Positions 38 to 22,331 of a stretch of 22,331 nt of DNA are shown in pieces. The position numbers were made by a program, and so were the translations under genes. A model generated the notes under the pieces. That model was not told the DNA's origin, made no database searches, and saw only the letters and a list, made by a program, of their open reading frames with translations. How positions within the stretch are numbered: position 1 is the first letter of the stretch; each line of letters opens with the position of its first letter. Where the stretch lies: positions 1 to 22,331 of the IMG/VR virus record IMGVR_UViG_3300023104_000019. One strand, given 5' to 3'. Source of the stretch: a virus.

Positions 38-532
38 CTATTCACTGCGTAAACCTAAACGTACTCGTTGCGAATCATCATCACAGCTGTAGTCTTCAAA
101 TTGTGTAGTAAATGTCAAATCTCTCACTCTTAAACCTACATCGTTACGGTTTAGCCCTTTCGCACTGGTTCTGTTTAACAACTCGCAATAGTCACTTTCC
201 CAACTTGCAATAGCCATATATAACTTTTGTTCCAGTTCCAGATATGCCAAACCTAATTCCCTTACTTCAATTGGTGCCTTGTGATACGTTTGGCTATAAG
301 TATCCATTACCAAAATAATTGATACTGTAGGTAATGCCAATTGATTTTTCCCTTGTAGGTTCGAAAATCCTGTATCTGGAAAATCAATTAATACACCAGG
401 AAACGACATCATTTTTCGTGGGTCTTCAGAGCCTAACTGTCCAAGGTCTTGCTCAATATATGTAATCGCTGGAACTTTGGTTTTTATTTGTTCCTGAAGG
501 TCTAAAAATAAACGGGCAAATGGTGATTCCAT
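38..532 (-). CDS. Probable tail terminator/tail completion protein
   Basis: This 164-residue soluble protein has no signal peptide or membrane segment. It is the last gene of the leftward head operon and starts 2 bp after the stop of the gpG-like gene. I do not recognise a named domain with certainty. Its size, mixed alpha/beta composition (an N-terminal helix near residues 4-20, a strand-rich middle such as PTVSIILVMDTYSQ, and a long amphipathic helix near 88-110) and its place directly after a gpG/gpS-like gene fit a tail-terminator or minor tail protein of the Mu gp37/lambda gpU type. Such proteins cap the tail tube and join it to the head. The function is inferred from position; a head-closure protein is the alternative. 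Confidence 0.5.
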   Translation of the reverse strand: MESPFARLFLDLQEQIKTKVPAITYIEQDLGQLGSEDPRKMMSFPGVLIDFPDTGFSNLQGKNQLALPTVSIILVMDTYSQTYHKAPIEVRELGLAYLELEQKLYMAIASWESDYCELLNRTSAKGLNRNDVGLRVRDLTFTTQFEDYSCDDDSQRVRLGLRSE

Positions 533-534
533 AA

Positions 535-1095
535 TTATTGCATGATTTGTTTAATATCTCTGGCTACTTGTCTCTGAACAGCATTATTTAATACAGGACT
601 ATCATTAGGTTTTGTTGGCATAAATTGACGTTTTGGAATATTCATTTTACGCTGATGTGATCGTACTTGGCTACTACCTGATTTAAACGTAACGGTTTGC
701 ATTCGTTCTTTTCCTGTTTTGGTAAACTTTCCAGTGCCTTTTTTGGCTTTGCTGTATTTGTTCCGGCTATGAGCTTTAATTGTCACCGTTCCATTGAAAC
801 CTTCGTTATGAACTTTAGCATGAGGTGAACTATTTTTCAAAGTGGTTTGTCCTGGTTGCGTGGTGTAATAATTAGCAGCTCTCAAACCTCCTGATTTTAT
901 CAATGTACTACCGTGAGGTTTACGGCTTTTTTTCCATCGCTCAAAGCTTTGTCCTTGGAATCCCTGAGCCCTGAAATTACCATTAATAAAACGCAAACCA
1001 ATATTACCCGCTATCGATGGATAGCGATTATTAGCATAGTTTTCTATAGCTGCTGCCTTGGCTTTTAAAACCTTTGGTAATTCTTCAGGTGTCAT
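535..1095 (-). CDS. Phage virion morphogenesis protein (Mu gpG / P2 gpS-like)
   Basis: This 186-residue basic protein resembles the phage virion morphogenesis family that includes P2 gpS and Mu gpG, which act in tail completion and head-tail joining. The visible hallmarks come in the usual order: a FERWKKSRKP stretch near residues 51-60, a short STLIKSGGLR motif near 63-72, a PHAKVHNEGF motif near 91-100, and a terminal IPKRQFM segment near 153-159 that corresponds to the 'P-R-F' motif of the family. The start codon overlaps the 3' end of the Mu F-like gene by 4 bp, so the two are probably translationally coupled. The family assignment is firm. The exact step in assembly is inferred from the P2 and Mu relatives. 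Confidence 0.75.
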   Translation of the reverse strand: MTPEELPKVLKAKAAAIENYANNRYPSIAGNIGLRFINGNFRAQGFQGQSFERWKKSRKPHGSTLIKSGGLRAANYYTTQPGQTTLKNSSPHAKVHNEGFNGTVTIKAHSRNKYSKAKKGTGKFTKTGKERMQTVTFKSGSSQVRSHQRKMNIPKRQFMPTKPNDSPVLNNAVQRQVARDIKQIMQ

Positions 1096-1844
1096 TTTCT
1101 TATTGTAAAATAAGGATGTGAATTATTAAATATCAATCCTGTTAATGCTGCATTGTTATCGAAAATTGTTCCTTTAACTAATGGACCAACTACTTTGTTC
1201 GCCCAATTGCTATTGTATGCAGCACTCAAATTTTTAGCAACACCAGGAATAACGGTACAACGACAACCCCAGTCTAAAGGAGTATATAAACGCCTCCAAA
1301 TAGGATCACTTTTTAAAGCCGTAAACTTGTCAAATAGCTTATGACTAGCTCTAACATGGCTATCTCCTACAGTGGTAAACTCTAAATACTCAGAGTCTAA
1401 TGTCTCCCACTTATGAGCCATAATAGCACTTTGAGTTACAAATTGATGCTCAGCTCTCAAATAATTATTATTGAAGACTTCGCCCGTATCAGCAACTAAT
1501 TTTTTAACGGTGTCAAAGCTTTGTTTTTGCCCTTTTTCGTTAAAAACATAGTCTTTAAATAAATGAAATTGCGTTAAGGTTTTAGCATAACTAAATTGCT
1601 CAATGTTTTGAATAAACTTGCTTTGCAAAGCTTTCCGGCTATCATCGTCATCAAACGAGGTTCCGCCAAAGCCTTTGTTCATAGCAGCTATTAATTGAGC
1701 AGCTGTTTTATTGTATAGCGCATCGGTATTAAGGTCTTCGCCTTCTAATAACTGTCTTGCAATATCAGTATAGATGTTGTCCCATTCTTGGCCGTTATCG
1801 GCTAAGTCAGGTAATTCCATACAGTCGCAAGTATTGCTATACAA
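1092..1844 (-). CDS. Phage head morphogenesis protein, Mu F-like
   Basis: The C-terminal half matches the Mu F / SPP1 gp7 head morphogenesis family, a minor head protein that binds the portal and is packaged in small copy number. The signature lies at about residues 161-199: D-S-H-V-R..H (His168), a spacer, then TPLDWGCRC (Cys194 and Cys196), which corresponds to the family's 'P.GW.CRC' motif. The N-terminal 100 residues are helical and poorly conserved. The longest open frame begins at a TTG at 1842-1844; an ATG eight codons further in (1818-1820, MELPDLAD) is an equally credible start. The reading frame stays open upstream into the portal gene, but without an ATG or GTG. The gene lies just downstream of the portal, its usual place. 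Confidence 0.85.
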   Translation of the reverse strand: MYSNTCDCMELPDLADNGQEWDNIYTDIARQLLEGEDLNTDALYNKTAAQLIAAMNKGFGGTSFDDDDSRKALQSKFIQNIEQFSYAKTLTQFHLFKDYVFNEKGQKQSFDTVKKLVADTGEVFNNNYLRAEHQFVTQSAIMAHKWETLDSEYLEFTTVGDSHVRASHKLFDKFTALKSDPIWRRLYTPLDWGCRCTVIPGVAKNLSAAYNSNWANKVVGPLVKGTIFDNNAALTGLIFNNSHPYFTIRK

Positions 1845-1861
1845 ATTGTTTAATTGCCCAA

Positions 1862-3202
1862 CTAGTGTTGGGCTTGGTCGAAAAAATCGGCTAAGTTCTT
1901 AAAGAACCAGTCGGCTAAGTTTTGTTTTTTGGTGTCGGTCAATTGCCCTTTTTTAGGTTGTTGTCCTGGTCCTTTTTTGGTCTTTTCAGTTTCTAGTACT
2001 TCAGCGGTTTGGAGTTGCTTTTGTTCCTCCATTTTCGCCTTCAGTTCGTCATAATTATCAGGCTTCGGAATTCCATAAGTATTGTACCAATAATCGTCAC
2101 TTACTGGCACTTTCGAACTTACAAAAGTGTCAATTTCCATTCGAAGCTTCAACTTAGTTAAATCAAGGTCTAACTCAAATTCAAACTTTCCATCTACATC
2201 ATAACCATAAGATTTTAATATCTGTTTAAACTTCTTTGAATTAAGTAAGTTTTCTACAAAAATTAAATCAGAAATCGTTAATTCATCCTGCTGTTCTCCA
2301 TGCTCTTTAGACTGAGCATAGCCACTGGAACTGCTTGACGTTGTAGTTTCAGTATTACCAAGAATAGCAATAGACATTTCCTCGTTACAGGCATCTTTTA
2401 AGCCTATTTGTAGTTTACCATCACCGTTAGACGTTTTACCGTCCAGCATTTCAAATTCTGCCTGTTTTGGGATCATCATTGCTAATGACGAACCGCTATC
2501 AGTTAATAAGGTTTTTAGTTCCTGCTTGGTTTTAGTGTCATAAGCATCATATTTCATTATTCGAACAGGTTGCCCGAATATTTCCACATATTGTGCATAA
2601 TCGCCAAAGGTACCACGTTTGTAAATGGCATACATTGAACACGCCAAAAGCAATCCTAAATCGGTTTTTTTACCTACTACCCAAATAAAAGGCATGTCTT
2701 CATAAGCGAAACCATTATCTAATGAAACGCCATATTGTGACTTACTAATAATTCCTTTTTCGGGCTTGATGTGTTTTCGTGGAACTTCTTTAAACTCCAA
2801 TTCCTCACCAATAACAAACTCTATTCCTGAAGTACCCCAAAGTTTTGATTCCATCAACAACGTAATCAAATCACGTCCTTTTTGTCCGTTGATTAATTCG
2901 GTAAGGTCTTCGTTTTCTTTACCGTCCTTTTTAAGGAATTTGATTTTTTTATTATTGACTGCATCAATTCTTTTTTGAATAATTCCACGCAAAAAACCAT
3001 CCATAGACAGGATGTCGTGGTATAAATCGTAAAGCAATACACGGTTAGGGTAATAAATGCTTTCAGCACTAATAACACTTTCCTTTAACCTGCCAATATC
3101 CTTACTGCTACGGTCAGGAGCTACAAGAGTTAAATCATGGATAACATAAGCCTGATCCTGCTTAGTTGGAATTTCTTTTGAATTATTTTTTGCTTTTGCC
3201 AT
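1862..3202 (-). CDS. Phage portal protein, DUF935 / Mu gp29-like
   Basis: This 446-residue protein fits the DUF935 family, the portal of Mu-like phages, which forms the dodecameric ring at the capsid vertex through which DNA is packaged. Recognisable features are the N-terminal segment about DGFLRGIIQKRIDAV (an early portal helix), the GTFGDYAQYVEIFGQPVRIMKYDA stretch in the middle (the family's 'Y.E.FG.P.R..KY' motif), the MMIPKQAEFE segment, and a Ser-rich loop (TTTSSSSSGYAQSKEHGEQQ) before the C-terminal wing, as in other DUF935 members. The C-terminus is Lys/Gln-rich. The length is slightly below that of Mu gp29. The gene lies between the gp36-like connector and the F-like gene within the leftward packaging operon. 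Confidence 0.88.
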   Translation of the reverse strand: MAKAKNNSKEIPTKQDQAYVIHDLTLVAPDRSSKDIGRLKESVISAESIYYPNRVLLYDLYHDILSMDGFLRGIIQKRIDAVNNKKIKFLKKDGKENEDLTELINGQKGRDLITLLMESKLWGTSGIEFVIGEELEFKEVPRKHIKPEKGIISKSQYGVSLDNGFAYEDMPFIWVVGKKTDLGLLLACSMYAIYKRGTFGDYAQYVEIFGQPVRIMKYDAYDTKTKQELKTLLTDSGSSLAMMIPKQAEFEMLDGKTSNGDGKLQIGLKDACNEEMSIAILGNTETTTSSSSSGYAQSKEHGEQQDELTISDLIFVENLLNSKKFKQILKSYGYDVDGKFEFELDLDLTKLKLRMEIDTFVSSKVPVSDDYWYNTYGIPKPDNYDELKAKMEEQKQLQTAEVLETEKTKKGPGQQPKKGQLTDTKKQNLADWFFKNLADFFDQAQH

Positions 3203-3204
3203 CG

Positions 3205-3675
3205 TTAAAATCTTTGTGTACGTTTTTGATTAGAACCCCAAAAAACACCATCGTTTTGAGCGCTTTCGTCTTCAGGAGTTTCGGGATTATCGGGTTTGTA
3301 TGGCCAACTCGGATTTATATTTCCTTCTTTAATATCATACAGCCATCCAGGTACTTCTTTATTCCCAATCATTATTTCCCAATCATCTCTAAATAATTCT
3401 AGGTTTACATTGGGGTTTGATTTTCGAACCAACCAATAAGAGGCGATCACTTTAACCGTCTTTTTTAAGTTTTCATCAACAACTGTTGGAGCAACAACCG
3501 GATTAACAGTATCGTCACCAAAAAGGGCTTTTAAATCGTATTTAAACAAATAGGATTTGCAAAAGTCTTCAGCAGCTTTTATTTGTGTAATAGTCTCGTT
3601 TGGATCACTTCTAGTAATCGCTTCGATAATTTCAGGATAGAGTTCGGTATTTAATTCTGATGGTTGTACTAACAT
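3205..3675 (-). CDS. Head-tail connector-like protein (gp36/DUF1320-like)
   Basis: This 156-residue acidic protein starts with MLVQPSELNTELYPEIIEAITRSD, a pattern like the DUF1320 / Mu gp36 family, where a short helical N-terminus leads into an 'AE..v..YL..KYD' segment (here AAEDFCKSYLFKYDL, about residues 35-49). A second helix containing VIASYWLVRK fits the same fold. These proteins are gp6-like neck or connector components between portal and tail. The C-terminal 35 residues are Pro/Asn/Asp-rich and probably disordered. The start overlaps the terminase stop by one base (TAATG), a coupled arrangement. Placement before the portal, between terminase and portal, differs from Mu, where gp36 follows the capsid gene. 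Confidence 0.6.
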   Translation of the reverse strand: MLVQPSELNTELYPEIIEAITRSDPNETITQIKAAEDFCKSYLFKYDLKALFGDDTVNPVVAPTVVDENLKKTVKVIASYWLVRKSNPNVNLELFRDDWEIMIGNKEVPGWLYDIKEGNINPSWPYKPDNPETPEDESAQNDGVFWGSNQKRTQRF

Positions 3676-5207
3676 TACATTCGGTGTTTATTGGCTTGAC
3701 GTTTGAAACTTTCTATTGATCCGGTTGCTGATGTAATTTCTATTTCTTCAATTTTTACAGTTGCACCTTCCACAGCATCGGGTCCATCCATTAATTTTGC
3801 CTTTCGGTTAAATCCAGTAAACTGAGCAATCATTCGCTCCATGTGTGGATTTGCTTTTTCGGCTATGTTAAAAATCAATTTACCAAGCCTGTTAAGTGGT
3901 TCAAGTTTTCCCTCAATCCTTGCGTATTTTTCAGGCTTTTTTCTATCGTCTGGACGAATAGGTAAAAACACATTTCGTTCATTACTTATTCGGTAGATAT
4001 GGGGTAATATTACCTGTTCATAGAATGGGTTTTGTAGCGAGTTGTTTTCAATCCAGATATACACTATATCCACTCCTGCCTGTTTACAAATAGCATAAGC
4101 TTCAAATAAGTACTCACAAAATTGAGCGTTACCCATTTGATCTACCCAAACCTTATACACAAAAAACTGATTCCCTTTTTTTGCCTCAATAACAATAGCT
4201 TTACTACTGGCATTTGTTTTGTCCGAGTTTGACGGTGCGGGGTCGGCATAGATTACTACAGTATCACAATGGCGTAATTGCGGACATTTTTCGAAAACCA
4301 TATCTTTAAAAGTGTCGCCTCCATCCATTGGGTTGTTGCAATATTCTTTTTGGAAACTTTCGTATGAAATAGAGTTTTCCACTCTTTTAATAGCTTCGTC
4401 TGAGTTCTTGTTTGGCCACGAGCTTACACCGTCCTTATCGCGAATATTGACAATATCCCATTTATCGGCTTTCTTTCCCATTTCGGTAATACAGCAGTAC
4501 TTTGCAATGATGTTACCACAGGCAATAAGCAATAAGCCGTTTGAGATAGAACGTGTTGGAATTAAAGCCTGTTCAATCCATTTAACACGCTCTTTTACAA
4601 GTTCTAAATTTCTGCAAAATTCATCCGTATCAATATCATCAATCAAAATGACATCTGGACGACTTGCATCGTTACGGGTTCCACGAGGGGATTGACCCGC
4701 TCCAATAGCTCTAAAGGAAACTCCTTTACGAGTTTTGAACTCGCTGGACTCCCAAGAGCCAACTTTCTTTTGAATACCGTAATCGGCAATAATCCTGTTA
4801 TTGCGTTCTAATATTCCTTTATAAGGTAAAAGCAACCTTTCGGCATTATCAGCAGAATTCGAGATTAAAAGAATGTTTTTCTTTTTTCCCGTCATCGCCA
4901 GGTAAAGTACTTCCATCATGGTTCGACCTGACTTGGAAAGTTCTCTCGCCCATGAGCGTACTTCGTACCATTCGGCATTTGCTAATACACGTTTGGTTGC
5001 TTTTATATGAAATTCAGCGGGTTCGCTGGTATAATAATTTGGAAAGTAGTATTTAAACCACTCTTCGGGATTCTTTTCTAAGTGTGCAATTCTTCTAAGT
5101 TTTGCACCGTGGCTTTCAGTTAAGTCAATAGGTGTGGCATTGTCCATGTTTTCACAGAACTCTCTCCACGTATCTAAATATTCCTTATTGCTTACTTTTT
5201 TAGCCAT
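3675..5207 (-). CDS. Terminase large subunit (Mu gp28-like)
   Basis: This is the 510-residue motor of DNA packaging. It hydrolyses ATP to pump DNA into the prohead and cuts it at headful or pac/cos positions. The ATPase domain occupies roughly residues 45-240. A deviant Walker A lies at 88-96 (RELSKSGRT), NILLISNSAD at 111-120 follows the motor-domain strand, and Walker B is VILIDD at 186-191 followed by D193. The C-terminal RNase H-like nuclease is visible from Asp322 in VVIYADPAPS, Glu387 in IVYIWIENNS, and Asp474/Asp477 near DGPDAVEGA. All three acidic positions expected for metal binding are present. The gene overlaps the small terminase by 8 bp. Confidence 0.92.
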   Translation of the reverse strand: MAKKVSNKEYLDTWREFCENMDNATPIDLTESHGAKLRRIAHLEKNPEEWFKYYFPNYYTSEPAEFHIKATKRVLANAEWYEVRSWARELSKSGRTMMEVLYLAMTGKKKNILLISNSADNAERLLLPYKGILERNNRIIADYGIQKKVGSWESSEFKTRKGVSFRAIGAGQSPRGTRNDASRPDVILIDDIDTDEFCRNLELVKERVKWIEQALIPTRSISNGLLLIACGNIIAKYCCITEMGKKADKWDIVNIRDKDGVSSWPNKNSDEAIKRVENSISYESFQKEYCNNPMDGGDTFKDMVFEKCPQLRHCDTVVIYADPAPSNSDKTNASSKAIVIEAKKGNQFFVYKVWVDQMGNAQFCEYLFEAYAICKQAGVDIVYIWIENNSLQNPFYEQVILPHIYRISNERNVFLPIRPDDRKKPEKYARIEGKLEPLNRLGKLIFNIAEKANPHMERMIAQFTGFNRKAKLMDGPDAVEGATVKIEEIEITSATGSIESFKRQANKHRM

Positions 5208-5643
5208 TCTTTAACTTGGAGTTGATAAACTCATCTATGTAATTTTTGAATTTTTTAGCATCAGTCAAATCAATAGACTGGATGAATGTTAATAGCTTTC
5301 TTGAAACTTCTACATATTCGCCTAAACCTATTTCTGTTTCAAGTCGCTCAATGTTTGAAGTGATTTTCGACATGATGTCGGCTTCTTTTGATGTAGGAAT
5401 TGGTAAATCTCTTTTAGCAATATCTTCATTAAGTGCATCGAGTTGATTGTACCAGTGAACCAGTTGATTCTCTTTAGTGGTCAATAAACTTTTACGAAGT
5501 TTATCCCAATTATCCAATTCAGCCCATTTGCCAATAGTCTTTTCGGTTACTCCTGTTCGTTCGGCTATCTCCTTAAAGGTGATGCGTTCGTTTACATATA
5601 ATATTCGAGCATACTCCCGCTCTTGTGCTTTATTGATTCCCAT
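5200..5643 (-). CDS. Terminase small subunit with N-terminal HTH
   Basis: This 147-residue protein heads the leftward operon and overlaps the large terminase by 8 bp. The N-terminal 55 residues form a helix-turn-helix of the kind seen in phage terminase small subunits and gpP-type ATPase N-termini. The recognisable order is ARILYVNERITFKEIAERTGVTEKTIGKWAELDNWDK (helix 2 FKEIAERTG, turn VTEK, recognition helix TIGKWAEL). The rest is predicted helical, with coiled-coil heptads near residues 65-105 that could drive oligomerisation. Such proteins bind the packaging initiation site and regulate the large subunit. The job is inferred from position beside the large terminase and from the HTH. The start is the ATG at 5641-5643. 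Confidence 0.8.
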   Translation of the reverse strand: MGINKAQEREYARILYVNERITFKEIAERTGVTEKTIGKWAELDNWDKLRKSLLTTKENQLVHWYNQLDALNEDIAKRDLPIPTSKEADIMSKITSNIERLETEIGLGEYVEVSRKLLTFIQSIDLTDAKKFKNYIDEFINSKLKNG

Positions 5644-18462: not shown

Positions 18463-19425
18463 ATGGCAGTTACAGACAAATCAATAATAAAAAACTGGTT
18501 TAAAAACGGTTTGATTCCTTTTCAAGAACACTTTTGGAATTGGATTGATAGTTTTAGACACATGAACGATAAAATTCCTTTGGCTGATGTTGAGGGAATT
18601 GATGATGCTCTGAATAGTAAGGCCAGTGCAACGGTTTTAAATCAACACATCACAGCAAATGATGCACATCAGGCATTGTTTGAATTAAAGCAAAGTTTAA
18701 TCGAAAAAGGTCAAGCAAATGGATACGTTCCATTAAATGAAATCATAAAGATTTCATCTCAATTTTTGGATATTGTTGACGATCTTATTACTGGCGGTTC
18801 TACGGCTTTGGCATCTGCTGAAACCGTTAAAACTTTGAAAGGTCAAATAGATGCCATAAACTTGATTTTAACCTCTGATGATGTTAATCTTGACACCGTT
18901 CAGGAGCTTGTAGATGCAATTAAAGAAGTTGAAACTTCATTGCAAACTATCTTGGTGAACGACCTGACCACGGGCGGAACTACCAAAGCTCTTACTGCTG
19001 AAATGGGTAAGAGTTTAAAGGCTTTGATTGATGCTTTGGGAACTAATAAGGTTGACAAAGTTGCGGGTGAAAGATTGATTAGTGCAGCGGAACAGTTGCA
19101 GTTATCTAATTTGTCAATTGATTTATCGGGTAAACAAGATATTGCCAATCAAATTGAGGTGAATGTTTCGCAAAATGCACAGGCATCGTGGCACGGTAAA
19201 ACCGTTTTTTTTACGGCTAATGTTACTATAACAATACCAGCAGCGGGCTTGCCAACTGGATACACCTTCGAAGGTGTTACACCTCCTAGTTGTAGTGTCA
19301 CATGGGCGATTATTGCGCCAAAGGTTTGGGCTTTGGGTTCACCCGCTGCCACACCCGAAAAAAGCATTTTTACACTAATGCAGCTAATGAGTAATAGTAA
19401 TAATATTTATTTATTTGGATTGTAA
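18463..19425 (+). CDS. Tail fibre / short shaft protein
   Basis: This 320-residue protein has long trimeric coiled-coil-like and spacer segments typical of tail fibres. These include KASATVLNQHITANDAHQALFELKQSLIEKG, a TGGSTALASAETVKTLKGQIDAI segment (about residues 109-130), and DLTTGGTTKALTAEMGKSLKALIDALG further on. Similar 'GG..ALSAE.GK.L' phrases recur in fibres of Bacteroidota phages and likely form a shaft. The C-terminal ~100 residues are beta-rich, with a Thr/Pro-rich section (ANVTITIPAAGLPTGYTFEGVTPPSCSVTWAII). It follows the first fibre gene at once and its stop is one base before the next start codon, suggesting the LRR protein is made together with it. Confidence 0.7.
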   Translation: MAVTDKSIIKNWFKNGLIPFQEHFWNWIDSFRHMNDKIPLADVEGIDDALNSKASATVLNQHITANDAHQALFELKQSLIEKGQANGYVPLNEIIKISSQFLDIVDDLITGGSTALASAETVKTLKGQIDAINLILTSDDVNLDTVQELVDAIKEVETSLQTILVNDLTTGGTTKALTAEMGKSLKALIDALGTNKVDKVAGERLISAAEQLQLSNLSIDLSGKQDIANQIEVNVSQNAQASWHGKTVFFTANVTITIPAAGLPTGYTFEGVTPPSCSVTWAIIAPKVWALGSPAATPEKSIFTLMQLMSNSNNIYLFGL

Positions 19426-19426
19426 A

Positions 19427-20944
19427 ATGGGATTGCAAAAAACAGTTTTCGGAATGACCAAAGCAAAGCCTAACACGTTTATTGGCGGTGTATCTGGAAC
19501 AATAAATACACCTGCTTTGGTGGCCGCAAGATTGGGGATTTCAGTTTCGAGAATTAAGGCTTTTTCCGTAATAGGTAGTAATATTCAATTTGCGGTTACT
19601 GGTGGCAGTTATACTATAGCTGCAAATGCTTTTTCAGGTAATGCAAATTTGACTTACTACACAGAGAATTCTAACTTGGTTACAGCAATCGCTTCTTCAG
19701 CTTTTAATGACTGTGTTAAGTTAACAAGTATTGATTTATCTAATTGTACAAGCATAGGAATACAAGCTTTTATCAATTGTGTATTATTAAATAATATTGG
19801 TAGCTTTAATTCTTGTTTAACAATAGCTACAAATGCTTTTAACAATTGTCAATCTTTAGCAGGAAATATAACTCTTCCTGTGTGTACCTCACTTAATGGA
19901 GATAGTGTTTTTAGAGATTGTAAATTAATAACATCTTTTACCGCTAATAGTTTAACTACTATGACAGGTAATAATATGTTTACAGGTTGTACAATGTTTA
20001 CTTCTTTTACTGCTACTAGTTTGACTGTAATAAATGGATTTTCACAATTCTTTAACTTAACTAATTTAACAACTGTAAATGCTCCCTTATTAGTTCTAAC
20101 AAGTTCTAACACTTCGGTTTTTATAAATTGCATAAATTTAGAAAATTTAATAATTGGAAAGCCTACTTCAATAGGTAGTACAGTTTTTTCGGGCTGTGCT
20201 AAGTTAACAAGTATTGATTTATCTAATTGCACAAGTATAGCTATTCAGGCTTTTATAAATTGTGTGTTATTAAGTAATATTGGTAGCTTTAATTCTTGTT
20301 TAACAATAGGGGTAAATGCTTTTAACAATTGTCAATCTTTAGCAGGAAACATAACACTTCCTGTGTGTACCTCACTTAATGGGGATAGTATTTTTAGAGG
20401 TTGTAAATTAATAACATCTTTTACGGCTAATAGTTTAACGACTATATCAGGTAATAATATGTTTCTTGAATGCTTAATGTTTAGTTCGTTTACCGCTACT
20501 AGTTTGACTACGATAAATGGGATTTCGACATTCAGAAATTTAACTAATTTAACAACTGTAAATGCTCCTTTATTGGTTTTAACAAGTTCTAATACAACTA
20601 TTTTTGGCGGGTGTGTAAATTTAGAAACGTTAATAATTGGAAAGCCTACTTCTTTGGGAACAGCTGCTTTTGATGCTTGTTCAAAAATTACAACAATAGA
20701 TTTATCTAATTGTACGTCATTATTAAACCTATCTCTAAGGGGATGTTCTATGTTAAATTCTATATATGCTCCGATTCTTAACACATTAGGTTTAACGTCG
20801 GGCGATGATGGTGTTTTTGGAGTTATAAAAATAGGTATTACGATTACAGTACCAACAGCTTTACAAACAGTTAATTCAGGTGCACCTGATGGCGATTTAC
20901 TCTATGCAGCAACTTCAAGAGGAGCAACAATAGTTTATATATAA
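19427..20944 (+). CDS. Leucine-rich-repeat (BspA-like) tail protein, probable receptor-binding tip
   Basis: This 505-residue protein has many short repeats of BspA/LRR_5 type (e.g. LTSIDLSNCTSIGIQAFINC, SFTANSLTTMTGNNMF, LTTVNAPLLVL) with regular hydrophobic and Asn/Cys positions, forming a solenoid. An internal tandem unit of 161 residues (483 bp) occurs twice, with a third partial copy. The ATG at 19427-19429 is preferred; a TTG at 19415 lies upstream but inside the previous gene. There is no signal peptide, so it is not a bacterial surface BspA. Location after the fibres makes it a likely receptor-binding protein. The C-terminal segment has strand-rich sequence ending GDLLYAATSRGATIVYI. 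Confidence 0.72.
   Translation: MGLQKTVFGMTKAKPNTFIGGVSGTINTPALVAARLGISVSRIKAFSVIGSNIQFAVTGGSYTIAANAFSGNANLTYYTENSNLVTAIASSAFNDCVKLTSIDLSNCTSIGIQAFINCVLLNNIGSFNSCLTIATNAFNNCQSLAGNITLPVCTSLNGDSVFRDCKLITSFTANSLTTMTGNNMFTGCTMFTSFTATSLTVINGFSQFFNLTNLTTVNAPLLVLTSSNTSVFINCINLENLIIGKPTSIGSTVFSGCAKLTSIDLSNCTSIAIQAFINCVLLSNIGSFNSCLTIGVNAFNNCQSLAGNITLPVCTSLNGDSIFRGCKLITSFTANSLTTISGNNMFLECLMFSSFTATSLTTINGISTFRNLTNLTTVNAPLLVLTSSNTTIFGGCVNLETLIIGKPTSLGTAAFDACSKITTIDLSNCTSLLNLSLRGCSMLNSIYAPILNTLGLTSGDDGVFGVIKIGITITVPTALQTVNSGAPDGDLLYAATSRGATIVYI
19685..20650 (+). repeat. Two 483-bp tandem repeat units inside the LRR gene
   Basis: The codons around AAG-TTA-ACA-AGT-ATT-GAT-TTA at 19718 recur at 20201 and, more diverged, at 20684, always 483 bp apart. 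The two full units share long identical blocks (e.g. around TTGGTAGCTTTAATTCTTG and CTGTAAATGCTCC) interrupted by short divergent patches. A third partial unit begins near 20651. Unit borders are approximate, set by the offset and the matching blocks. Confidence 0.85.
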
Positions 20945-21308: not shown

Positions 21309-21703
21309 TAAAGCTATTTATAGAATTATTGTTTTTAGTTGTAGCAATATTGGTATTTCCGTTGCTGTTTGTGGTTGGTTTTGTCTATACTTTTTTCAAG
21401 CATATTTGGAAATTCGATTATTCAATTTCGAAACAACTTTTACCCATAGTTAGAAGTATAAGCCTATTGCTTGACGGTTTAGCCAATGCAGGAGCGGGCG
21501 AACTATTGAATGATGTGTACAAAGTCAACGGTAACATCAAATACGGCAAATGGTATCAAACTATTTCAGCAGTTACGGGATTGTTGCTTTTGCATGTTAA
21601 GGACACGAAGTTAAGGCGGTTCCTGGACAAAGTTTTAGGAACTGATCATTGCGTCGAGGCGATAAGTAAAGAAGATTTATTCTTTTACGAAAAATTTAAG
21701 TAA
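21305..21703 (+). CDS. Small membrane-anchored hypothetical protein
   Basis: The 132 residues begin with a strongly hydrophobic N-terminal segment (about residues 2-33, MIKLFIELLFLVVAILVFPLLFVVGFVYTFF), followed by basic/aromatic residues and a soluble, helical C-terminal ~95 residues. It is a predicted single-pass membrane protein (a signal anchor); a second weak hydrophobic stretch occurs near TISAVTGLLLLHV. The start overlaps the previous gene's end by 4 bp. It is the final apparent phage gene before the structured region. Function unknown; a lysis or superinfection-related membrane role is possible but not supported by any motif. Confidence 0.6.
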   Translation: MIKLFIELLFLVVAILVFPLLFVVGFVYTFFKHIWKFDYSISKQLLPIVRSISLLLDGLANAGAGELLNDVYKVNGNIKYGKWYQTISAVTGLLLLHVKDTKLRRFLDKVLGTDHCVEAISKEDLFFYEKFK

Positions 21704-21876
21704 TGTTTCCAGGAGGCGGGAAAAAAAATAGTCCTCCAACATTTAAAAAAAACTCTCACATCCTTTTTAAACTGACGCATCCAAGGTCGTCGGAGGACTT
21801 AATTATTAAGTCTTCTGATGGTCTTGGATGTGTTTTTTGTTGTAAGGATGTGAGAAGTGCAAATATAGAATATTAA
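21703..21876 (+). CDS. Possible 57-codon ORF overlapping the hairpin region
   Basis: An ATG at 21703-21705 overlaps the TAA of the preceding gene (TAATG), and the frame stays open to a TAA at 21874-21876, reading MFPGGGKKNSPPTF and ending CCKDVRSANIEY. It contains the complete nested hairpin, so its codons are constrained by the stem. The TAATG coupling favours a real gene. The hairpin, the unusual composition (CVFCC, GGGKK) and the lack of any familiar pattern favour a chance ORF. Only the frame itself is seen in the sequence. Confidence 0.25.
   Translation: MFPGGGKKNSPPTFKKNSHILFKLTHPRSSEDLIIKSSDGLGCVFCCKDVRSANIEY
21754..21855 (+). ncRNA. Nested structured RNA / extended hairpin
   Basis: A 12-bp perfect outer stem (21754-21765 with 21844-21855) encloses a continuous 29-bp inner stem (21774-21802 with 21806-21834) with a 3-base loop. 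The inner stem contains seven G-U pairs, at bases 21774, 21777, 21786, 21787, 21789, 21792 and 21795, and no mismatches when read as plus-strand RNA. These positions would be A-C mismatches on the minus strand, so the plus-strand transcript is the likely functional molecule. The region lies between the last phage gene and the TS-like gene. Whether it is a non-coding RNA, a terminator or an attenuator is not known. Confidence 0.6.
21774..21838 (+). terminator. Candidate intrinsic terminator of the late operon
   Basis: The 29-bp inner stem ends with a T-run (21833-21838, TTTTTT, two of whose bases are in the stem), like an oversized Rho-independent terminator. It is at the right place, 71 bp downstream of the last late gene stop. 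The extra 12-bp outer stem and the upstream AGTCCTCC segment are not explained by a simple terminator. Confidence 0.55.
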
Positions 21877-21888
21877 TTAAAAAATGAA

Positions 21889-22331
21889 ATGAATAAATAC
21901 CACCAAATTTTAAATAAAATAACCACTAAAGGAAAGGTTCAAAAGAATAAAAAAGGAAATATAACTTATTTGCTCAATCAAGAACTCCAAATGAAACCAA
22001 TAGATCTATTGGAGTTATTCGAGGGACACGCTGTAGCTAAAAAGAAGCTCAAGGATGAATTGTTATTGTTTATGCAGGGCGAACGCTCAACTGAGGCTTA
22101 TCGTGAAATAGGCGTCACGTGGTGGGATTATTGCGGTCCTATTTTAGTGAATAGTTACCCAACGTACTTCGAACAGCTGCCAAAGCTTATTGAGAAGATC
22201 AATAAAGAGAAACGACCGTCAAAGAATTATGTTTTATTTCTAGGCTCTAATAACACCGAGAGCAACCAACAGCCGTGTCTTAGCTTAATTCAGTTCCAGA
22301 TAGAAAAAGGAAAGGTAGTTATTAGCGCATA
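21889..22331 (+). CDS. Divergent thymidylate synthase-like protein, N-terminal part (runs off window)
   Basis: 147 codons are visible, with no stop. The order matches thymidylate synthase: MNKYHQILNKITTKG start, DELLLFMQG (Glu57, aligned with E. coli TS Glu58), VTWWDYCGP (Trp79-Asp80, aligned with Trp80-Asp81), and QQPCLSLIQF (Pro129-Cys130), the conserved Pro-Cys context of the catalytic nucleophile. However, the phosphate-binding arginine of the 'DRTGT' loop is Lys (KNKKGNIT), and the Arg-Arg pair before the nucleophile is SKNYV. The YGKQWR segment is also absent. Together these mean dUMP binding is altered or lost. It may be a dUMP/dCMP hydroxymethylase-like modifier, an effector, or a degraded TS. 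The start at 21889 is the first usable ATG; an ATG at 21884 stops after one codon. Confidence 0.7.
   Translation, partial: MNKYHQILNKITTKGKVQKNKKGNITYLLNQELQMKPIDLLELFEGHAVAKKKLKDELLLFMQGERSTEAYREIGVTWWDYCGPILVNSYPTYFEQLPKLIEKINKEKRPSKNYVLFLGSNNTESNQQPCLSLIQFQIEKGKVVISA

Follow-up and report, generated by a model that had tools for sequence, protein, structure and literature searches.

The mom operon of phage Mu is controlled through activation by C, through OxyR and Dam, and through Com, and we know of no RNA element in Mu that follows the plan described below. The attenuators of pT181 and pIP501 contain leaders with mutually exclusive pairings, which are overlapped by a short antisense RNA from the opposite strand. 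In lambda, tI/sib is a terminator whose read-through RNA forms a longer hairpin, and oop is a short antisense phage RNA. The mom function is lethal if mis-expressed and is specially controlled, according to the title of a 1985 article by Kahmann that is cited in PMC4461284. Bacteroides encode the DonS family of cis-antisense RNAs, which are 78-128 nt long and antisense to the gene that they repress (PMC7366714).

Here we describe an element within a 22.3-kb virus record (IMGVR_UViG_3300023104_000019), all 22,331 nucleotides of which constitute the window. With confidence and doubt about evenly balanced, we propose that it is a two-strand RNA control element, which lies between the late (tail) genes and a modification gene in Mu-like phages of Bacteroidota. 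Like mom, the DNA-modification gene lies at the right end of a Mu-like phage, and Mom homologs follow the element in nine regions; unlike mom, control is proposed to involve a pair of RNA hairpins and an antisense RNA. The mutually exclusive pairings and the short antisense RNA predicted here resemble those of pT181 and pIP501. However, the second pairing appears to be selected on the antisense strand rather than in the mRNA, the predicted antisense RNA covers the whole terminator, and the downstream genes modify DNA instead of starting replication. As a short antisense RNA, the predicted transcript also recalls the DonS family, and it differs from that family in its phage location and in being highly structured. 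Compared with lambda tI/sib and oop, a different gene is involved and one segment is shared by both strands.

A long hairpin within a larger element

An earlier note on this DNA, made from the letters alone, had described a hairpin of 29 consecutive pairs around a 3-nt TTA loop at 21774-21834, with seven non-Watson-Crick positions that are all G-U on the plus strand and A-C on the minus strand. Folding reproduced this structure, and comparison of the two arms yielded six G/A positions and one T/C position. The plus strand of 21774-21834 folds at -40.3 kcal/mol (z -11.1, with values of about -9 to -11 overall), which was equaled by 0 of 200 shuffled sequences, whereas the minus strand folds at -21.7 kcal/mol with seven mismatches. 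Although its coordinates were correct, the hairpin does not represent the whole feature, because an outer stem and the complementarity of a further segment (segment 1) extend it. The hairpin forms the core of an element that spans about 21706-21867, and its parts, together with the gene that follows, are listed here.

21706-21722, plus: segment 0, with a small TTTCC/GGGAA hairpin whose loop contains GGAGG (21712-21716); pairing with segment 1 is possible and is kept in relatives
21721-21728, minus: A-tract on the plus strand, read on the minus strand as a U-tract just past segment 1', where the minus RNA is predicted to have its 3' end; each of the 70 non-redundant viral copies has at least 4 T among the first 7 nt
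21721-21855, minus: predicted small RNA of about 135 nt, suggested by the 2':1' pairing together with the promoter box and U-tract
21730-21740, minus: segment 1 (AGTCCTCCAAC on plus), which pairs with segment 2 in the minus RNA; covariation with segment 2 and minus-only G-U wobbles
21754-21765, no strand assigned: 5' arm of the outer stem, TCTCACATCCTT; perfect 12-bp inverted repeat with compensatory changes in relatives
21774-21834, plus: the hairpin, with arms 21774-21802 and 21806-21834 and loop TTA at 21803-21805; found by folding and more stable as plus RNA in relatives
21789-21799, no strand assigned: segment 2 (GTCGGAGGACT), partner of segment 3 in plus RNA and of segment 1 in minus RNA
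21810-21819, plus: segment 3 (GTCTTCTGAT), G-U-rich partner of segment 2
21833-21838, plus: T-tract behind the hairpin, terminator-like
21844-21855, no strand assigned: 3' arm of the outer stem, AAGGATGTGAGA (inverted repeat, covariation); predicted 5' end of the minus RNA
21860-21867, minus: leftward -7 promoter box TATATTTG (Bacteroidota consensus TANNTTTG)
21889-22329, plus: thymidylate-synthase-like gene, the DNA-modification gene after the element (PF00303, E 2.8e-8; phrog_160, E 6.8e-11), truncated by the end of the record

On the plus strand, the order is segment 0, A-tract, segment 1, an A/T linker, outer stem, basal arm and segment 2, which are followed by the loop, segment 3, the second basal arm, the T-rich tail, the outer stem, GCAAATATA and the next gene. 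Segment 1 is complementary to segment 2, which lies in the 5' arm of the hairpin, except at one A-C position. The pairing of segments 0 and 1 is present in relatives, including as GGGGG/CCCCC pairs, and displays no strand preference (354 Watson-Crick, 7 G-U and 6 A-C). The stop codon of the upstream gene in relatives is frequently at or overlapping segment 0. An open reading frame of 57 amino acids crosses the hairpin (21703-21876); it has no family match and no sign of retention in relatives, which suggests that it is probably not a gene. Elsewhere in the window, a gene block that includes a terminase-like gene is on the minus strand, and genes for capsid, sheath, tape-measure and fibre proteins are on the plus strand. 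The minus block (38-5643) contains a DUF1804/terminase-small-subunit-like gene and a likely large terminase, opposite the plus-strand capsid and tail genes.

Strand use and transcription signals

The earlier note had asked for a search for related copies with covariation. This search recovered a conserved element in which the outer and inner stems both covary. Across 70 non-redundant viral copies, the outer stem scored 27.0 with its true arms and 17.5 with arms swapped between copies, and the basal (inner) stem scored 23.1 and 13.4, respectively, with a control of simple arm swapping that does not model phylogeny. The note had also held that the plus transcript is the strand that folds, and this idea gained support from the variable, basal part of the inner stem, which on plus contains 108 G-U and 22 A-C positions among 103 viral relatives. 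For these wobble counts the arms were aligned with equal scores for G-U and A-C, and they cover related sequences and not independent events. Furthermore, in each of the 70 non-redundant relatives the plus RNA forms the more stable hairpin. The inner hairpin of the 61 copies from genomes and phages has 231 G-U versus 26 A-C positions on plus, most of which are near-invariant apical pairs. The three apical G-U pairs alone would be weak evidence for plus folding because they are nearly invariant and tied to the competing pairing.

Selection on the plus fold is nevertheless an incomplete account, because the same 5' arm also takes part in a second pairing, which appears to be selected on the opposite strand. 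Beyond its fixed core, the helix of segments 1 and 2 has A-C on plus in 24 of the 70 non-redundant copies and G-U in none, which indicates that its wobbles are G-U on the minus strand only (24 sequences versus 0). A preemptor of the pT181/pIP501 type would have its 1:2 pairing selected in the mRNA, whereas here the G-U positions fall on the antisense strand. The same columns of this helix feature A-T, G-C, C-G and T-A pairs, with examples including GCCTTCCAAC/GTTGGAAGGC in L058 and GTCCCCC/GGGGGAC in L112. In the minus RNA, whose segments are marked with primes, the mean energy of the 2':1' pairing is -18 kcal/mol versus -3 kcal/mol for 3':2'. The 1:2 pairing is also energetically possible in plus RNA, where an antiterminator role is possible. 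A mutational strand bias was rejected as the source of the one-sided wobble because the inner stem and the 1:2 helix lean in opposite directions. Taken together, comparison of the copies lends good support to the anatomy of the element and its strand use, with the long hairpin selected in plus RNA and the 2':1' pairing selected in minus RNA.

Transcription signals were also found on both strands. On the minus strand, TANNTTTG lies immediately next to the outer stem in 60 of the 61 copies from genomes and phages. Among non-redundant viral copies, 97% have the -7 box, compared with 4% of shuffled sequences, and free variation is confined to its NN positions. The plus strand features no excess of this box (3% versus 6%). 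The sequence TANNTTTG is the published -7 consensus of Bacteroidota (PMC7366714), and the element thereby carries the -7 box of a Bacteroidota primary-sigma promoter. In Flavobacterium johnsoniae no -33 motif was detected, and in Flavobacterium it is reported as weak (PMC7366714); among the copies, TTTG at -33 is enriched at a spacing of 18 (12 versus 1.1), yet it is missing from many copies and from the window.

A stable GC-containing hairpin followed by a U-tract, which is the form of an intrinsic terminator, is present on the plus strand of the window and of the Bacteroides hankyphage. The T-rich tail is clean in these two and uneven in relatives, and because the T-tract is weak in several copies (L014, L009 and L094), plus termination does not appear equally convincing across copies. 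On the minus strand, the U-tract follows segment 1' in 70 of 70 copies, and the wobbles of the 2':1' stem are those of minus RNA. This stem closes a long structured loop, and the putative terminator would form a pseudoknot with both the inner and the outer stem, which is an unusual form. The resulting minus RNA is predicted to extend from about 21855 to 21721.

Downstream genes and distribution

In 151 of 164 downstream regions we found a gene from one of six DNA-modification families, always on the plus strand, and none of these six families is encoded in the upstream regions. The families comprise D12 N6-methyltransferases (60, in two families), ThyA-like proteins (49), an ATPase-GNAT fusion (24), C5-methyltransferases (9) and Mom (9; PF25680, E 5.6e-62). 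Most of the remaining downstream regions with enough sequence share one ParB-like/N6_N4 methylase family, for which one representative was confirmed by Pfam (PF01555), and the region of L126 contains a gene of unknown function. At L083 and 23 other loci, the fusion of an ABC-type ATPase with GNAT (phrog_11143, unknown function) replaces Mom or the methyltransferases, and it may represent a DNA-modification enzyme. The right end of hankyphage p00 encodes TS and an N6-methyltransferase. In the hankyphage locus L116 (3204-3446; BX-TP1 40721-40963), the element is followed immediately by a gene with the annotation Mor-domain transcription activator, which precedes the TS and methyltransferase genes. 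Placement of the DNA-modification gene close to the right end of a Mu-like phage matches that of mom in Mu, which suggests that the element most likely serves the control of DNA modification.

The related copies number about 165 and derive from viral contigs and from genomes of Flavobacterium, Chryseobacterium and their relatives, in addition to homologs in Bacteroides hankyphages. Pattern searches located the element in further viral contigs and in genomes of Flavobacterium and Chryseobacterium. With only the three core segments fixed, the pattern returned 108 distinct viral matches, of which 103 have both stems. A covariance model matched 32 of 300 genomes in the genus of G001 (from a Flavobacterium locus), 12 of 173 in the genus of G004 (from Chryseobacterium daeguense), 6 of 36 in the genus of G002, 6 of 300 at the level of family and 3 of 395 at the level of phylum, with sometimes two to four copies per genome. 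The regular-expression search of genomes also matched unrelated, mostly GC-rich genomes, which were dropped by eye, and the counts leave out at least 120 mostly unchecked matches of the GC-rich, hankyphage-type pattern in viral contigs. Three genomes (G166, G285 and G279) have three to four copies each, which suggests that one host can harbor several related Mu-like prophages.

The hankyphage element, whose locus is p00 40529-40709 (L115 1823-2003), follows the same plan with a different sequence, and its four variants feature compensatory changes. The R1 model, which was built from flavobacterial copies, detects it at E 9.5e-10. When the window and five related loci, hankyphage included, were compared with Rfam 15, no match exceeded the gathering threshold, and the weak matches were only to eukaryotic miRNA/snoRNA-like models of long hairpins. 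A search of one literature collection found no earlier description of such an element. Judged by these comparisons, this is a widespread RNA element without an Rfam entry that is tied almost exclusively to DNA-modification genes.

Proposed mechanism and alternative explanations

Sequence comparison gives good support to both pairings and their strand assignment, as well as to the promoter box, the U-tract and the link to modification genes, and these features suggest the following model. In the late plus mRNA, segments 2 and 3 and the basal arms would form the long hairpin with its U-rich tail, which may end or attenuate late transcription ahead of the modification gene. The host-type leftward promoter, with its -7 box TANNTTTG, would start the minus RNA at the outer stem. 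Within this RNA, the G-U pairs of the hairpin would turn into A-C mismatches, which would leave segment 2' free to pair with segment 1', and because segment 1' lies directly before the U-tract, we propose that the 2':1' pairing ends the minus transcript. The minus RNA would be antisense to the leader of the modification gene. In a lysogen, the terminators and the antisense RNA, acting through RNA pairing or polymerase collision, would keep the costly modification gene off, and strong late transcription would override both. The plus terminator-like hairpin and the minus RNA thus probably restrain the modification gene jointly.

We weighed this model against other explanations. A plain bidirectional terminator, which would insulate the late operon from the modification cassette and stop leftward transcription with the minus RNA as a by-product, is consistent with the presence of a hairpin and a T-tract in each direction and with each pairing being favored on its own strand. 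However, the conserved leftward promoter sits right at the boundary of the element, such that its sole product would be the element itself, the outer stem is conserved though neither terminator needs it, and the association is specific to DNA-modification genes. This explanation appears unlikely to us, and the suggestion in the earlier note that the hairpin is more than a plain terminator seems right. The promoter box, the closing outer stem, the terminator-like end and the nearly invariant AGAAGAC/GTCCTCC would also suit a minus RNA that acts in trans as a small RNA of the prophage, or that binds polymerase or a protein, with the plus hairpin being mostly its mirror image. We consider that possibility quite improbable, given that the wobbles of the inner stem favor plus five to one and the position before modification genes is fixed.

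The very stable plus structure could instead be the only functional one, serving the processing or stability of the late mRNA (an RNase III site, as in lambda sib) or acting as an attenuator governed by translation of the upstream gene, for which the 0:1, 1:2 and 2:3 pairings provide an attenuator-like chain of alternatives, with the minus features incidental. The 1:2 wobbles oppose plus RNA (0 G-U versus 24 A-C) and the leftward promoter box is near-universal, and we regard a role confined to plus as highly improbable. The occurrence of a conserved element ahead of seven different gene families could suggest a DNA site (a cruciform, or a site of recombination) for the exchange of modification cassettes. 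Yet a double-stranded DNA site would give no G-U bias, and two helices have strand-specific wobble while the element carries a promoter box and U-tracts, all of them signatures of RNA and transcription, which makes a DNA site extremely improbable.

Within the preferred reading of a two-strand control element, we advance a broader interpretation tentatively, with slightly less than even confidence: the element would be two-faced, in that one DNA segment contributes to two mutually exclusive terminators, one per strand, with the G-U pairs serving as a strand filter and the antisense RNA timing DNA-modification genes across Bacteroidota. We know of no earlier account of such a design, in which wobble pairs make the two strands of one DNA segment follow opposite folding rules. 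For Mu-like phages of Bacteroidota, the element offers a possible explanation, at the level of RNA, of how a costly mom-like activity stays off until late in infection. The element is open to testing now, as hankyphage lysogens of Bacteroides thetaiotaomicron have been cultured and studied by RNA-seq; in that study, most phage genes rise upon silencing of the repressor, and its text does not mention the locus of the element (PMC12135933).

Two other element types were considered and rejected. The outer inverted repeat resembles the a1/a2 repeat of a retron, but the 78 nt between its arms hold the 61-nt hairpin and leave no room for an msr, and the downstream gene is never a reverse transcriptase. 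The conserved boxes do not agree with attC or a different kind of recombination site, and the RNA signatures dominate.

At locus L138, where the element lies near 758-849 on the minus strand, segment 1 and the linker are duplicated in tandem (GTCCTCCAAAATTAAAAAC twice). In the window, the gene at 19415-20944, directly behind a fibre-like gene, encodes a BspA-type leucine-rich-repeat protein (PF13306, E 9.5e-57), which is possibly a variable receptor-binding or fibre protein of the phage.
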